A stretch of DNA of 64,000 nt from positions 868,001-932,000 of the forward strand of contig NZ_JACZZA010000001.1 in the NCBI RefSeq assembly GCF_014863405.1. The letters run 5' to 3'. Shown here one piece after another: positions 15,751 to 58,488 of this stretch; positions within the stretch are counted from its first letter, which is position 1, and each line of letters starts with the position of its first letter. The notes beneath the pieces are model-generated. The model was not told where the DNA came from. It worked only from the letters and a program-made list of their open reading frames with translations, and searched no databases. Source of the DNA: Dyella acidiphila. GTDB taxonomy: Bacteria > Pseudomonadota > Gammaproteobacteria > Xanthomonadales > Rhodanobacteraceae. The position numbers and the translations under genes are program-made.

Positions 15751-17034
15751 TCAGATCACCACCAGATCCGCGTGCAGCGCACCGGCTTGCTTGAGCGCTT
15801 CGAGAATCGAGATCAGGTCGGTCGGCGTCGCACCGACCTGGTTCACCGCACGCACGATCGAATCCAGGCTCACACCAGGACCGAACTTGAACATATGGCC
15901 GCCCTGCTGGCTGATCGATACCTGGCTGCTCGGCACAACCGTGGTCTGGCCGTTGCTGAAAGGTGCGGGCTGGCTTACTTGCGGTTGTTCGCTGATGGTC
16001 ACCTGGATCGAACCGTGCGCCACCGCGGCAGCACTGACGCGCACATCCGCACCGATCACCACCGTGCCGGTGCGCGAATTGACGATCACGCGTGCCGGCG
16101 CATCGCCCGGCGCCACGTCCAGCGATTCGATCGCGCCCAGCCACGCCACTTTCTGGCCCGGGTCGACGGGACCGCGCACCGATACCGAGCCACCATCCAG
16201 CGCACGCGCCGTGCCGGCGCCATACAGATGATTGATGGCATCGACGATGCGATTGACGGTGACGTAGTCGGCGGTGTTCAAGTTCAGCACCAGGTCGCCG
16301 GCACTGCCGAAGGAATTGGCTACTGCCCGCTCCACCGACGCGCCGTTGGGAATGCGTCCGCTGGCGGAAATATTGATCTGCACGCTGGAACCGCTGCGAC
16401 CCGAGGCGCTGACGCCGCCGACCACTACGCTGCCCTGCGCCACCGCGTAGACATTGCCGTCCGCACCGCGCAGCGGCGTCATCAGCAGTTCGCCGCCGCG
16501 AATGCTCTTGGCATTGCCGATCGAGGCCACCGTGACGTCGATGGCCTGGCCCGGCTTGGCGAACGGCGGCAGATCCGCCGTGATGGTCACCGCCGCCACG
16601 TCTTTCAGCTGCGGCTGGATGCCGGTGCTGGGAATCGACACGCCGAACTGCTTGAGCATGTTCTCCAGGCTTTGCGTGGTGAACGGTGCCTGGGTGGTCT
16701 GGTCGCCGGTGCCGTCGAGGCCGACCACTAGGCCGTAGCCGACCAGCTGGTTGCTGCGTACGCCGGCTACTTGCACGAGGTCGCGGATTTTGTCGGCGTG
16801 CGAGATGCTGGGAATCAGCATCAACACTATCGCTGCGGCGATCAGCGCGAAGTGCGCACGACTCGCCGCAAGCAGCCCCCTCCCCTGTTTGACAGGGGAG
16901 AGTTGAGGCGGGATTGTCCGAGCTTGCCGCGAGGGTGAGGGCTTCACCCCACCCCAACCCTCCCCTACTGCACGTAGAAGAGGGAGCGGTTCACGGCAAG
17001 CATCAACAGCATTGAAAAAAGTGTTCGCGCTCAT
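15751..17034 (-). CDS. flgI: Flagellar P-ring protein FlgI with repeat-derived N-terminal extension
   Basis: 427 residues from the ATG at 17034, which overlaps the flgH stop (TGATG), a coupled start. The mature P-ring protein is typical ([31 protein letters not shown], then [19 protein letters not shown], and C-terminal [21 protein letters not shown]). The signal peptide hydrophobic core lies at residues ~62-80 ([19 protein letters not shown]) instead of near residue 5-25. Residues ~15-54 are encoded by a CTCCCC/GGGGAG repeat that stays in frame. FlgI proteins are normally about 360-370 residues. An internal non-ATG start just before the hydrophobic core (for example CTG after a GGGGAGGGG stretch) is an alternative. 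Confidence 0.93.
16877..16986. repeat. CTCCCC/GGGGAG-family repeat inside the 5' end of flgI
   Basis: Contains CCCCTCCCCTGTTTGACAGG with its GGGGAG partner and a CACCCCAACCCTCCCCTAC arm. The family is otherwise intergenic here (18557, 22502, 32580, 41431, 56005). This copy lies between codon ~15 and codon ~54 of flgI and keeps the frame. Confidence 0.8.
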
Positions 17035-18556: not shown

Positions 18557-18690
18557 CCTATCCCCAACGGGGAGAGGACCGAGGTGAGGGGGACAAGCTT
18601 GCGGAAAACATGCATCGGCGCCGGCTTCGAAGCTGGCTGCTCGCGAGCGTGTTCCCTCACCCCAACCCTGTCCCCGGAGGGGAGAGGGAG
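18557..18690. repeat. CTCCCC/GGGGAG-family repeat pair between flgF and flgG
   Basis: The left arm (CCCCAACGGGGAGAGG...GGTGAGGGGG) and right arm (CCCTCACCCCAACCC...CCGGAGGGGAGAGGG) are in opposite orientation. They occupy most of the 200-base flgF-flgG gap; no promoter motif was recognised there. Confidence 0.75.
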
Positions 18691-23732: not shown

Positions 23733-23759
23733 TCAACTTTCGAATGTTCCCGCCGATGT
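23733..23759 (+). promoter_or_regulatory. Possible overlapping sigma28-like promoter
   Basis: TCAACTTT, 11-base spacer, GCCGATGT: 6 of 8 matches in each half to TAAAGTTT-N11-GCCGATAA. It follows directly on the sigma54 element, so the gene might be read by both factors. Confidence 0.4.
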
Positions 23760-23790
23760 CAGGGAACCCTTGTATGGAATTGCCTCGCTT

Positions 23791-25101
23791 ATGAGTCTGC
23801 TCCGCAGCCAGCACCTGGCCGCCCTTATCCAAGCCGCCCTCGCCGGTAACGACGCCGAGCTGGCGCGCCTGAGCCGCAAGCATCCCGTGGCCGCCGGGCT
23901 GTTGGCGCCGCTGTTCGCGCGGCTGGCCCCGCGCGCGCCTGCCGCGGTGGCGCTGCAGTCGCTGGAACAGCAGAGCCTGGTGCTTACCCATGCCCAGACC
24001 CTGCATAAAGAGCAGACCGAGCTGGAACAGTCGATCGGCCAGAGCCGCGATGGTGTCGGTCAGTTGACGGAGCACAGCGCCGGGATGTCGACGATGCTGC
24101 AGCAAGCCCAGGGCGGTATCGCCCAGGCCGGCAAGGCCGGCGAGCAGAGCAGCGCCAGCGTGGCCGAGCTGAACGGCCAGCTGCGTCTGCTGCGCAGCGC
24201 GCTCTCGGCGATGAACCAGAATCAGAGCCTGCTGACCGAGCAGGTGGCGCAGATCCGTGCGCTCACCACCACGGTGCAGGACATTGCCCACCAGACCAAC
24301 CTGGTCGCCCTCAACGCCGCTATCGAAGCCGCGCGTGCCGGCGATGCCGGTCGCGGTTTCGCGGTGGTGGCCGACGAAGTGAAGCAGCTGGCGGAAAAAA
24401 CCACCCAGGCCACGGCGGAAATCGAAACCGTGACCAGCTCCATCGGTGAGTTCTCGCTGCAGATGAACGGCAATGTGCAGCTCGGCCTGCAACGGCTGGA
24501 GCGCGCACAGAGCGGCGTGACCGAAACCGAACGCTCGCTGCAGCAGGGCAGCGAAGTGCTGCAGGCCGCCGGTGGCCAGCTGCGCTCGCTGCGCGAAACC
24601 CAGGACGCCACCCAGGTGCGCGCCACCACCATGAAGGCGACGCTGGGTGCATTGCAGCGCCGTGCCTACGAAGCGCGTCGCCACGGCGAAGCGCTCAGCC
24701 GCGCCGCGGCACTGGCCCATCGCCTGTGCCTGGGCTGGCTGGAAGGCGAAAGCGGCAACGACACCGCCAGCCTCAGCCTGACCGTGCGCGAATCGGTCGT
24801 GGGCCTGCGCCAGAGCATGGAACTGGCGCTGCAGGAACCCACCTCGCTGGATCGCCGCTGGTTCGATACCGACGTACTGCAGCGCAGCCTCGACCGCCTT
24901 ACCGCTCGACACGCCCAGCATCCCACCAGCGAAACGCTGCGCCAGTCGGCAGCGCGTCTGCAGGAACATGGCAACGCCTTCCTGGAACTGCTGATCAACG
25001 GCCAGTTCGACCAGGCCGCGCAGATGTCCGGCAAGCTGGAAAGCGAGCGCGACGCGATCAACAACCAGCTGTCCAGCATGCTGGCCGACGGCGTGGCATG
25101 A
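23791..25101 (+). CDS. Soluble methyl-accepting chemotaxis protein
   Basis: 436 residues from the ATG at 23791, chosen because it lies just after the promoter elements; the frame is open far upstream but that part is antisense to cheV. There is no transmembrane segment or signal peptide, so it is cytosolic. Residues ~1-75 are a short unrecognised helical region and ~80-290 the coiled-coil signalling domain. The CheA/CheW-binding hairpin tip is intact ([20 protein letters not shown], then [20 protein letters not shown]). A ~130-residue C-terminal helical region ([14 protein letters not shown]...) may be the sensory part; it is only vaguely reminiscent of zinc-binding CZB domains and is left unassigned. 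flgA follows with a 4-base ATGA overlap. Confidence 0.85.
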
Positions 25102-25910
25102 GTTTGCAGACGCCGCCGCCCTCTGCACGACGTCATTCCCGCGCAAGCGGGAATCCATTCTTGCTTTTTGACATCAGAGCAAAATGGATTCCCGCTTGCG
25201 CGGGAATGACGTCCGTGGGGGCTGCGGCACGGCTCATCGCTACGGCGATCCTTTTTACGAGCGCCACCGTCGCCCACGCCGACACCACCGCCGACCAACT
25301 GCGCAGCGCCGCCGAACAAGCCGTGCACACGCAGTACGGCAGCGCCGGCAGCCGCGTGGTGATCATGCCGACCCGACTCAATCCGCGCCTGCATCTGGCA
25401 GCCTGCCCGCACGCCTTGCAGACCAGTCTGCCCGGCCGCCAGGGCACGCCCTCGCGCGTGGCGGTGGCGGTGAGCTGCAGCGGCAGTCCGGGCTGGACCA
25501 TCCAGGTGCCGGTGCAAATGCAGGTATTCCGCCAGGTGCTGGTCACCAGCCGCCCGCTGGCGCGTGGCGATATCGCCGGGCCGGCCGACGTGCACGCCGA
25601 GGAGCGCGACGTCACCCGCCTGGGCTATGGCTATATCGAAAGCCTCGACCAGATCACCGGCCATTCGCTGGCGCGGCCGCTGATCGCCGGGGCAGTGTTG
25701 GAACCGGGCGATCTCAACGGCCGCCAGACCGTGCGCTCGGGCGAGGAAGTGGCGTTGATCGCCGACCTGGACGGGATCGAGGTACGCGCCTCGGCCATCG
25801 CCCTGGACGGCGGCGACACCGGGGCTCATCTGCGGGTGCGCAACGGCAATTCGGGCAAGATCATCGATGCGGTGGTACTCAGCGCCGGGCAGGTGCAGGC
25901 GCTGCCATGA
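25098..25910 (+). CDS. flgA: P-ring assembly chaperone FlgA with repeat-derived N-terminus
   Basis: The mature part is clear FlgA: a SAF-type domain with [21 protein letters not shown] and the C-terminal [18 protein letters not shown]. The annotated start is the ATG at 25098, whose ATGA overlap with the chemoreceptor stop implies coupling (270 residues). However, a complete REP-like element (25131-25211) is read in frame here and gives an Arg-rich peptide ([11 protein letters not shown]...WIPACAGMT) before the signal peptide. An internal ATG at 25206, created by the end of the repeat itself, would give a 234-residue protein with a normal signal peptide ([17 protein letters not shown]), close to the usual FlgA length. 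FlgA acts in the periplasm on FlgI. Confidence 0.88.
25131..25211. repeat. REP-like element inside the 5' end of flgA
   Basis: A full 81-base copy: arms CGTCATTCCCGCGCAAGCGG / CCGCTTGCGCGGGAATGACG with a central part around TTGCTTTTTGACATCAGAGC. It keeps the flgA frame open and supplies an ATG at its right edge. Confidence 0.85.
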
Positions 25911-26866: not shown

Positions 26867-28159
26867 ATGACGACCAGTACTGCCTCAGCGACCGCCCCCG
26901 CCACCCCGGGCAACGACGCTCCCAATTCGCTGAGTGACTTGCTGCTCCCGGTAGTGCGCAGTCCGATCCTCGATCAGGAAGAAGAACTGTTCGCCTACGA
27001 GCTGGTGTTCTACCGCCAGGGCGCGGGCACCGACGCCGACACCACCATGATCGGCGGCATCCTTTCCGGCATCACCGATGGCGCGATCACTCGCCTGGTC
27101 CGCGGCAACCGCGCCTTCATGCGCATGCCGCGCTCGCTGCTGCTGGAACAGACCGACGTGCTGGCGCATACGCCGCGCCTGGGCGTGATCGTCGATCCGT
27201 TCCAGGTGCGCGACGCCGCCGTAGTGCAGCGCCTGCAGCAGCTGGCGCTGCGCAACTGCCCGCTGATGCTCGACCTCGGCAGCCTCGATCCGGCGGCCAG
27301 CCAGCCGCATGGCGCGCTGGAACCGCTGCTGCGCCTGGCGCGCTACGTGCGCATCAATGCCAAGGCGCTCGACCCGGACACGCTCGCCATCCGCTGCAAG
27401 CAATTGTTCCAGCGCGGCCTGGGCGTTATCGCCGGCAACGTCGACGACCATGTCACCTACGGCCATTGCAAGGATCTGCCGTTCCAGGCGATCCAGGGCC
27501 GCTACCTGCTGGTGCCGCAACAGATCGAAGTGCCGGTGCTCACGCCCAACCGCCTGAGCCTGCTGCGCCTGATGAGCGCGCTGCAGGAAAACAATGCAGG
27601 CCCGGTGGAACTGGGCGAAATCATCCGCGACGACGCCGTGCTCAGCTACAAGCTGCTCGGCTGCGTGAACTCTGCGTACTTCGCCTTGCCGCGCCAGCTG
27701 AAATCGATCCAGCAGGCGGCGATCTTCTTCGGCGTGGCGCGCATGCGCAACTGGATCAACACCATGTCGCTGAGCAGCATGGACGATCGCCCGCCGGAAC
27801 TGCTGCGCGCCGCACTGATCCGCGCGCACATGTGCGAAAAACTCGCCCAGGGCATGTCCACCGAACAACAGGACATGGCCTTCATGGCCGGCCTGCTCTC
27901 GCTGCTCGACACGCTGCTGTGCGCGCCGATGGAATTCGTGCTCAGCCATCTGCCGCTGGCACCGGAAATCCGCGAAGCGCTGGTGGAAGAACGCGGTCCG
28001 TTCGCACCACTGCTGGGACAGATCTACGCCTGGGAAACCGGCGACCTGCAAACCGCGCAGATCCAGCCGCAGAACATCCGCAAGATGGCCGGCGCGTATT
28101 ACGCGGCCACGCAGTGGGCGGACCAGGTGTATTCGTTCGCAGAACAGCGGCCCAATTAA
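26867..28159 (+). CDS. Degenerate EAL plus HDOD signalling protein
   Basis: 430 residues, soluble. The N-terminal ~200 residues resemble an EAL phosphodiesterase fold of the YuxH class (RSPILDQEEELFAYELVFY), but the catalytic EAL/ELL residues and downstream metal ligands are not preserved, so cyclic-di-GMP hydrolysis is unlikely. The C-terminal ~200 residues are an HDOD domain (LSLLRLMSALQENNAGPVELGEIIRDDAVLSYKLLGCVNSAYF). Proteins of this architecture act in motility and stress signalling. It follows flgMN on the same strand after a 75-base gap and converges with a stand-alone HDOD gene. Confidence 0.82.
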   Translation: MTTSTASATAPATPGNDAPNSLSDLLLPVVRSPILDQEEELFAYELVFYRQGAGTDADTTMIGGILSGITDGAITRLVRGNRAFMRMPRSLLLEQTDVLAHTPRLGVIVDPFQVRDAAVVQRLQQLALRNCPLMLDLGSLDPAASQPHGALEPLLRLARYVRINAKALDPDTLAIRCKQLFQRGLGVIAGNVDDHVTYGHCKDLPFQAIQGRYLLVPQQIEVPVLTPNRLSLLRLMSALQENNAGPVELGEIIRDDAVLSYKLLGCVNSAYFALPRQLKSIQQAAIFFGVARMRNWINTMSLSSMDDRPPELLRAALIRAHMCEKLAQGMSTEQQDMAFMAGLLSLLDTLLCAPMEFVLSHLPLAPEIREALVEERGPFAPLLGQIYAWETGDLQTAQIQPQNIRKMAGAYYAATQWADQVYSFAEQRPN

Positions 28160-28180: not shown

Positions 28181-28288
28181 TAGGTTGGGTTAGCGAAGCG
28201 TAACCCAACAATGCCGCCATCTTTCGGCACAACGGCACGCTATCTCGATGCGGATATTTGTTGGGTTACGCTGCGCCAACCCAACCTA
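28181..28288. repeat. TAGGTTGGGTTA-family inverted repeat
   Basis: Arms TAGGTTGGGTTAGCGAAGCG and the reverse complement (GGGTTACGCTGCGCCAACCC then AACCTA) enclose about 45 bases. It lies between convergent signalling genes; the rest of the 237-base gap (to 28396) shows nothing further. Confidence 0.8.
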
Positions 28289-58262: not shown

Positions 58263-58269
58263 ACCATCG

Positions 58270-58397
58270 TAGGTTGGGTTAGCGCAGCGTAACCCAACAA
58301 ATACACACACCACGAAAGACATTCCATGCAGCGCGCTGCTTTTAAAAAAAGCAGCGCGCCTTACACGCAAGGCTCGGCATTTGTTGGGTTACGCTGC
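58270..58397. repeat. TAGGTTGGGTTA-family repeat, right arm truncated
   Basis: The left arm is complete (TAGGTTGGGTTAGCGCAGCG). The right arm (TTGGGTTACGCTGC) is cut off and runs directly into a REP-like element at 58409. A 13-bp hairpin (GCGCGCTGCTTTT / AAAAGCAGCGCGC, about 58331-58359) is nested inside and may act as the nagA terminator. Confidence 0.8.
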
Positions 58398-58408
58398 CGC
58401 CTGAAGGC

Positions 58409-58488
58409 CGTCATTCCCGCGAAAGCGGGAACCCATTTTGACTTTGGACTTCAGAGCAACAAGGATTCCCGCTTTCGCGGGAATGACG
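58409..58488. repeat. REP-like palindromic element
   Basis: A full copy: CGTCATTCCCGCGAAAGCGG and its reverse complement CCGCTTTCGCGGGAATGACG, next to the truncated TAGGTTGGG repeat and before the convergent sulfatase gene. Confidence 0.85.

Follow-up and report, generated by a model that had tools for sequence, protein, structure and literature searches.

The flgA locus

In the window (the whole 64,000-nucleotide stretch of DNA that was analysed), the gene for the P-ring assembly chaperone, flgA, occupies positions 25098..25910 on the plus strand, and its frame runs without interruption from an ATG at 25098 to a stop codon at 25908-25910 (270 codons, 270 aa, by open reading frame reading), with Pfam matches of the product to ChapFlgA (1.6e-25), ChapFlgA_N and SAF. 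The start codon shares the tetranucleotide ATGA (25098..25101, plus strand) with the stop codon (TGA) of a methyl-accepting chemotaxis gene (23746..25101, plus strand, 5' end provisional; Pfam MCPsignal), and the same ATGA overlap was found at the flgA start in all 15 Dyella genomes compared. Behind this coupled start lies an inverted repeat (25129..25213) whose arms, 25129-25159 and 25183-25213, are 31 nt long, 100% complementary and separated by 23 nt. The repeat contains a left REP unit (25131..25157, plus strand) with a CGTC tag, an 8-bp stem, a GCAA loop and a CCA tail, laid out as CGTC-ATTCCCGC-GCAA-GCGGGAAT-CCA, and a right unit (25185..25211, minus strand) that is a reverse copy of it, the two tails facing inward. 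An earlier note on this DNA had placed a REP-like palindrome at 25131-25211, behind the coupled start and ahead of the signal peptide, and the dimer has exactly these coordinates.

Signal peptides were read by eye throughout. Taken from the coupled start, the predicted signal peptide of FlgA extends over 61 codons (25098..25280, plus strand) and carries the REP-encoded stretch in its n-region, and the mature protein would begin at about position 25281; the by-eye reading places 16 residues before DTT, with the AD-T junction conserved in the alignment. The right edge of the REP holds an in-frame ATG (25206..25208, plus strand), an alternative start from which a FlgA of 234 aa with an ordinary 25-residue signal peptide would be made, and before which no SD-like sequence at a usual spacing is seen by eye.

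A chance palindrome was ruled out by the perfect 31-nt arms, by a shuffle comparison (four matches to the REP unit core with at most two mismatches in the window, where shuffled sequences gave 0.04 on average) and by the 33 copies in the genome. These 33 exact units (13 forward and 20 reverse, with none for a reversed control pattern) are located on several contigs, many of them as opposite pairs about 50 bp apart. RNA folding at the flgA REP was predicted at -120.6 kcal/mol, compared with a shuffled mean of -74.4 (z of -11). A scan of positions 24800-25400 gave no promoter in the element, and the minus-strand terminator-like match in the same scan was the REP itself.

Assignment of the element to a REP family

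As described in the available text of Di Nocera et al. (2013; PMC3733652), CGTC-1 REPs have a CGTC tag, an 8-bp stem with A and T at positions 1 and 2, a 4-nt loop and a CCA-like tail. The flgA element has the tetranucleotide (CGTC, for which TGTC or CCTC at one end would also qualify) at 25131-25134 and, on the opposite strand, at 25208-25211, together with a stem, loop and tail of the corresponding form (ATTCCCGC, GCAA, GCGGGAAT and CCA). It resembles the family as portrayed in that text also in its AT-starting stem, inverted pairing, short spacer and dispersed copies, the 33 exact units of the window's own genome (G000) including oppositely oriented pairs, and its presence in one species and absence from others (one genome per species) fits insertion. 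No RAYT gene adjoining a CGTC REP was found at either of two loci, L081 and L082. The second of these (G000:C21:483528-483827) has a match to a Y1 transposase, flanked by GTAG-type units, and is a candidate RAYT for the GTAG family. Elsewhere in the window, a compound CGTC/GTAG repeat cluster lies at 58269-58488, and an inverted repeat of the TAGGTTGGGTTA type (31 nt, 94%) at 28181-28288, right after a gene ending at 28159.

flgA across the genus Dyella

The comparison of flgA covered 15 Dyella genomes, namely that of the window and 14 relatives, one per species, two of the genomes being metagenome bins; a genome assigned to the "same genus" with a divergent flgA (G003, 27% identical) was omitted from the 15-species counts. 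Insert-free flgA was present in six species (G001, G008, G009, G010, G011 and G013), where a signal peptide of 21-22 residues follows directly after the ATGA, while the other nine carry 48-207 nt beyond the insert-free 59 nt. Clear palindromes of several families were found in six of the nine long alleles: G000 has the CGTC REP, G006 a related element whose stem differs, G004 an element of the GGGGAGAGG type, and G002, G012 and G014 carry elements of the GTAGG type. The last three start like GTAG-tagged REPs, whereas the element of the window is of the CGTC type. These six inserts have palindrome scores of 21-32, compared with 4-8 for the insert-free alleles. Short hairpins were found in the three others and score 11 (G005), 9 (G007) and 7 (G015), the weakest not exceeding the score of 8 reached by insert-free G010. 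In G005 the hairpin is like one half of the GGGGAGAGG element (a half-unit-like match only), that of G015, first read by eye, has one relative with two mismatches within its genome, and that of G007 is unique within its own genome; the G007 and G015 hairpins are not clear dispersed repeats. Several of the element-bearing alleles have a similar start (MRF or MSFF, for example) ahead of the element.

In a tree built from 16 concatenated proteins, the species without an insert branch among the carriers (G009, for example, is insert-free while its sister G007 carries an insert), and neighbours often have elements of different families, so that several insertion events, or replacement in place, would be needed. 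Fixation of the repeat throughout the genus had been named beforehand as an outcome speaking against its capture; with insert-free alleles in 6 of 15 Dyella, the element is not fixed. Outside Dyella, no repeat was seen by eye in flgA at any of 15 loci from the family (L016-L030). The GTAGG-type elements of G014 (locus L010) and of G002 and G012 (L014 and L009) occupy nearly the same position. Where they differ, the changes in the two arms are paired, which gives the impression of a switch of family type at the site.

Reading frame and control junctions

All nine long flgA alleles exceed the insert-free length by a multiple of three and can be read without a stop from the coupled ATG onwards, and in five of the nine the insert is free of stop codons in only one of its three phases. 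Five alleles (G002, G004, G005, G012 and G014) lack an ATG in the stretch from the element to the hydrophobic core, although some have GTG or TTG, and the G012 allele is exceptional in having one ATG inside the core itself. As a control, long alleles (at least 45 nt over the shortest) were collected in the same 15 genomes before flgG, flgJ, flgK, flgL and flgM, which encode no signal peptide. Among the 17 obtained (5 flgG, 8 flgK, 2 flgJ, 1 flgL and 1 flgM), only one was open and four had lengths that were multiples of three. The difference between flgA and fliP taken together and these control junctions corresponds to a Fisher P of 1.5e-8, in which kinship among the species is ignored. If G002 and G012 are taken as one and only clear repeats are kept, the flgA events number about five, giving (1/3)^5 = 0.004 on length alone. 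One comparison element in the window, of the GGGGAGGG/CCCTCACCC type, lies in the flgF-flgG spacer (18569..18688, minus strand), where no signal-peptide gene follows and a stop codon interrupts the frame of flgG.

The elements of the own genome were counted on one contig (C11, 996 of 5,068 kb), using motifs taken from the flagellar inserts. Eight of the 29 elements that lie between genes of the same direction were open into the next gene, and five of these eight preceded genes judged by eye to have no signal peptide; an open frame in a single genome is thus weak evidence, and the weight lies on the cross-species comparison. On the same contig, the flagellar-chemotaxis cluster (C11:827734-893211, the final part of it being window positions 1-25211) spans about 66 of the 996 kb and holds 15 of the 57 elements defined by motif, where 3.8 would be expected; the choice of motifs biases this count.

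fliP and a LolA-like gene

The start of fliP overlaps the stop of fliO by ATGA (GTGA in G000). Between this overlapping start and the signal peptide, a palindrome was present in 8 of 15 species (scores 12-30), compared with scores of 3-6 in the other seven. All eight elements are in frame with the overlapping ATG or GTG and give signal regions of 61-75 aa, compared with 23 aa otherwise. In three of them (G004, G007 and G009), an SD-like sequence and an ATG stand directly behind the element, and these alleles do not need the element to be translated.

Among 30 REP loci, a LolA-like gene that follows a glycosyltransferase gene was a chance find. In 13 of 13 alleles, the distance from the upstream stop to the protein match (38-290 nt) was 2 mod 3 and the frame was open. 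Fifteen Dyella and G003 were tried, the upstream stop not being located in G003, G006 and G008; in G006 and G008 an overlapping start was found by a search inside the open frame, and these two were excluded from the frame evidence. Palindrome scores of at least 8 were obtained in 7 of 15 species, six of them scoring at least 13. At the 5' end of the gene in G004 (L191), two repeats of different families lie in tandem in one n-region, all in frame by eye. At another of the 30 REP loci that has a signal-peptide gene (L106), the element lies in an intergenic spacer and the gene has its own ATG behind it.

flgI, flgH and the P-ring coincidence

In the window, flgI (15751..17034, minus strand; Pfam FlgI) starts at 17034 in a TGATG overlap with flgH and has a signal region of 80 codons with an in-frame repeat. 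This n-region palindrome (16878..16966, minus strand, ends approximate from motif hits) is of the GGGGAGGG/CCCTCACCC type, that is, of a different family from the flgA REP and less perfect. Read from the TGATG overlap, the repeat is in frame in the window and in G002 (D. choica). Six of 15 species have flgI without an insert; of the nine long alleles, four are open through the junction and five have lengths that are multiples of three, and flgI therefore appears to follow the frame rule only in part. A common element whose loop ATG is used as start occurs in G004, G005, G010, G011 and G015, and in G007 and G009 extra sequence is present with a new start behind it. The pattern built from those five loop-start alleles has one exact match per genome, at flgI, and with two mismatches it matches once elsewhere in G004 and once in G007. 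The five species (loci L050, L059, L055, L058 and L047) are scattered on the tree and their elements are apparently orthologous; interspecies recombination or repeated loss would be needed to account for this scattered sharing. In G005, the left arm has decayed and the translated right arm is retained. The own genome also contains an flgI-like gene (G000:C7:61620-62714, 40% identical) and a fliP-like gene (C7:72212-72850, 47%), second divergent copies that perhaps belong to a second flagellar or related system.

For flgH, which has a lipoprotein signal peptide, an insertion was found in none of 15 genomes, and this ruled out that an element would be found in any signal-peptide gene. The earlier note had remarked on an odd coincidence, that both partners of P-ring assembly carry independent repeats at the same place. 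A repeat of a different family does lie at the equivalent place in flgI, but a coincidence limited to the P-ring partners was ruled out by fliP and the LolA-like gene, in which the same is seen. Judged by these loci, the insertion phenomenon is not tied to the P-ring or to flagella, and the flgA/flgI coincidence looks like a rule of position, by which the n-region behind an overlapping start would tolerate frame-keeping repeats.

Interpretation and alternative explanations

Translation of a gene can be coupled to that of the gene before it, and Sec signal peptides direct export and are cleaved off. Against this background, the observations are very probably best explained by a REP captured behind the overlapping start, read through as part of a signal peptide that is removed, and surviving after filtering by frame. 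A CGTC-type REP dimer, thought to be non-autonomous and mobile, would have entered flgA behind the overlapping start and ahead of the hydrophobic core of the signal peptide. Ribosomes ending the chemoreceptor gene would reinitiate at the overlapping ATG and continue across the REP, producing a 61-residue signal peptide with a REP-encoded n-region stretch, and signal peptidase would cut off the whole tag, leaving FlgA unchanged and retention of the element nearly neutral. Mainly stop-free, frame-keeping insertions would survive, because the n-region is tolerant of length and is discarded, and because the start could hardly be moved without losing the coupling. The same filter would act on fliP, the LolA-like gene and, in part, flgI, which have signal peptides behind overlapping starts and would for this reason collect repeats of different families.

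The REP could instead be 5' untranslated, with flgA starting at the edge ATG (25206) and the hairpin acting on the RNA only. This ATG is in frame with a typical signal peptide next to it, three fliP alleles have an SD-like sequence and an ATG after the element, and the available text of PMC3733652 argues that many amino-end REPs may be extragenic for this very reason. If translation began after the element, however, its length would not matter, yet the frame is kept in 9 of 9 long flgA alleles and 8 of 8 in fliP; five of the nine flgA alleles have no ATG between element and core, no SD-like sequence is visible by eye before 25206, and we consider an untranslated REP distinctly improbable. The earlier note had proposed that the edge ATG supplies a normal-length FlgA. 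Its frame and the signal peptide behind it agree with that proposal, but with the frame kept throughout and no SD-like sequence seen, it does not appear to be what gives a working FlgA, and it is probably not the main flgA start and possible as a secondary one. An upstream start with the peptide made, which the same note had listed as counting against its proposal, is what the data favour, as we infer from the conserved frames.

Recruitment of mobile palindromes as RNA regulators of exported proteins, with the hairpin selected as a translation brake or for mRNA stability, would account for different families each placing a hairpin at the same site and for the very stable predicted structure (-120.6 against -74.4 kcal/mol), although such stability is expected of any perfect inverted repeat. 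The flagellar cluster also seems enriched in the elements (15 of 57, on 66 of the 996 kb, with a biased motif set). Frame is nevertheless irrelevant to a hairpin alone, and 6 of 15 flgA, 7 of 15 fliP and 6 of 15 flgI alleles have no insert, the best inverted repeats there scoring 3-8, which makes such selection quite unlikely. Slightly less improbable, and still unlikely, is a single ancestral insertion per site with later conversion or replacement by other families. It is in line with the similar MRF or MSFF start before the element in several flgA alleles and with the loop-start flgI element, which occurs once per genome in five scattered species (by a pattern made from them); against it stand the insert-free alleles nested among carriers, such as G009 beside its sister G007, and an exact return to a signal peptide of 20-23 aa by loss seems, in our judgement, unlikely.

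Relation to known systems and significance

Capture and read-through of repeats behind overlapping starts would have a close parallel in the Rickettsia palindromic elements (RPEs), small palindromes found in frame within protein genes and apparently tolerated (PMC10969869; PMC3733652), of which RPE-6 and RPE-4 are described as CGTC REPs in the available text of PMC3733652. Like these, the flgA palindrome is in frame in a gene that is intact by its open frame, its ChapFlgA match and the 9 of 9 frame test. RPEs, as far as these sources describe them, sit in unrelated proteins, whereas the Dyella inserts recur in a single region that is dispensable to the mature protein and belong to several repeat families. 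PMC3733652 also describes REPs inside open reading frames, including two Xanthomonas recB genes with different REPs at approximately the same site. For P. putida, C. koseri and S. maltophilia, it voices the suspicion that most REPs at the 5' ends of open reading frames are non-coding. In contrast to this view, frame conservation in Dyella favours translated REPs, with a position tied to signal-peptide n-regions. The arguments given there left open whether amino-end REPs are translated or lie upstream of the true start, and the cross-species frames bear on this question for flgA and fliP. Within what these sources cover, in-frame palindromes (in Rickettsia genes; PMC10969869) and REPs inside open reading frames (PMC3733652) are already known. 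Recurrence in n-regions behind overlapping starts, together with comparative coding evidence, appears to be new: a literature search, with subscription papers mostly outside its scope, found no earlier report of REP recurrence in signal-peptide n-regions. The extended signal peptide regions of autotransporters place a long charged n-region extension before a Sec signal peptide and form conserved domains. The Dyella tags likewise have a long charged n-region before a Sec signal peptide; unlike those conserved domains, their extensions consist of repeat sequence that differs between species.

The comparison suggests that mobile repeats can land in, and be tolerated by, the n-region of a signal peptide, and yields a simple, testable rule for where small palindromes survive inside tight operons. 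Ranging from 21 to 90 residues, the FlgA signal peptides form a natural length series that could serve to gauge how long an n-region the Sec pathway accepts. A bolder and rather doubtful extension is that n-regions of genes with overlapping starts may be a general safe harbour for REPs in Dyella, and perhaps in other REP-rich bacteria, and that some arginine-containing REP-encoded n-regions may tune membrane targeting or translation of low-copy envelope proteins. If true, this would define a class of signal peptides that are derived from mobile elements and convergently acquired.
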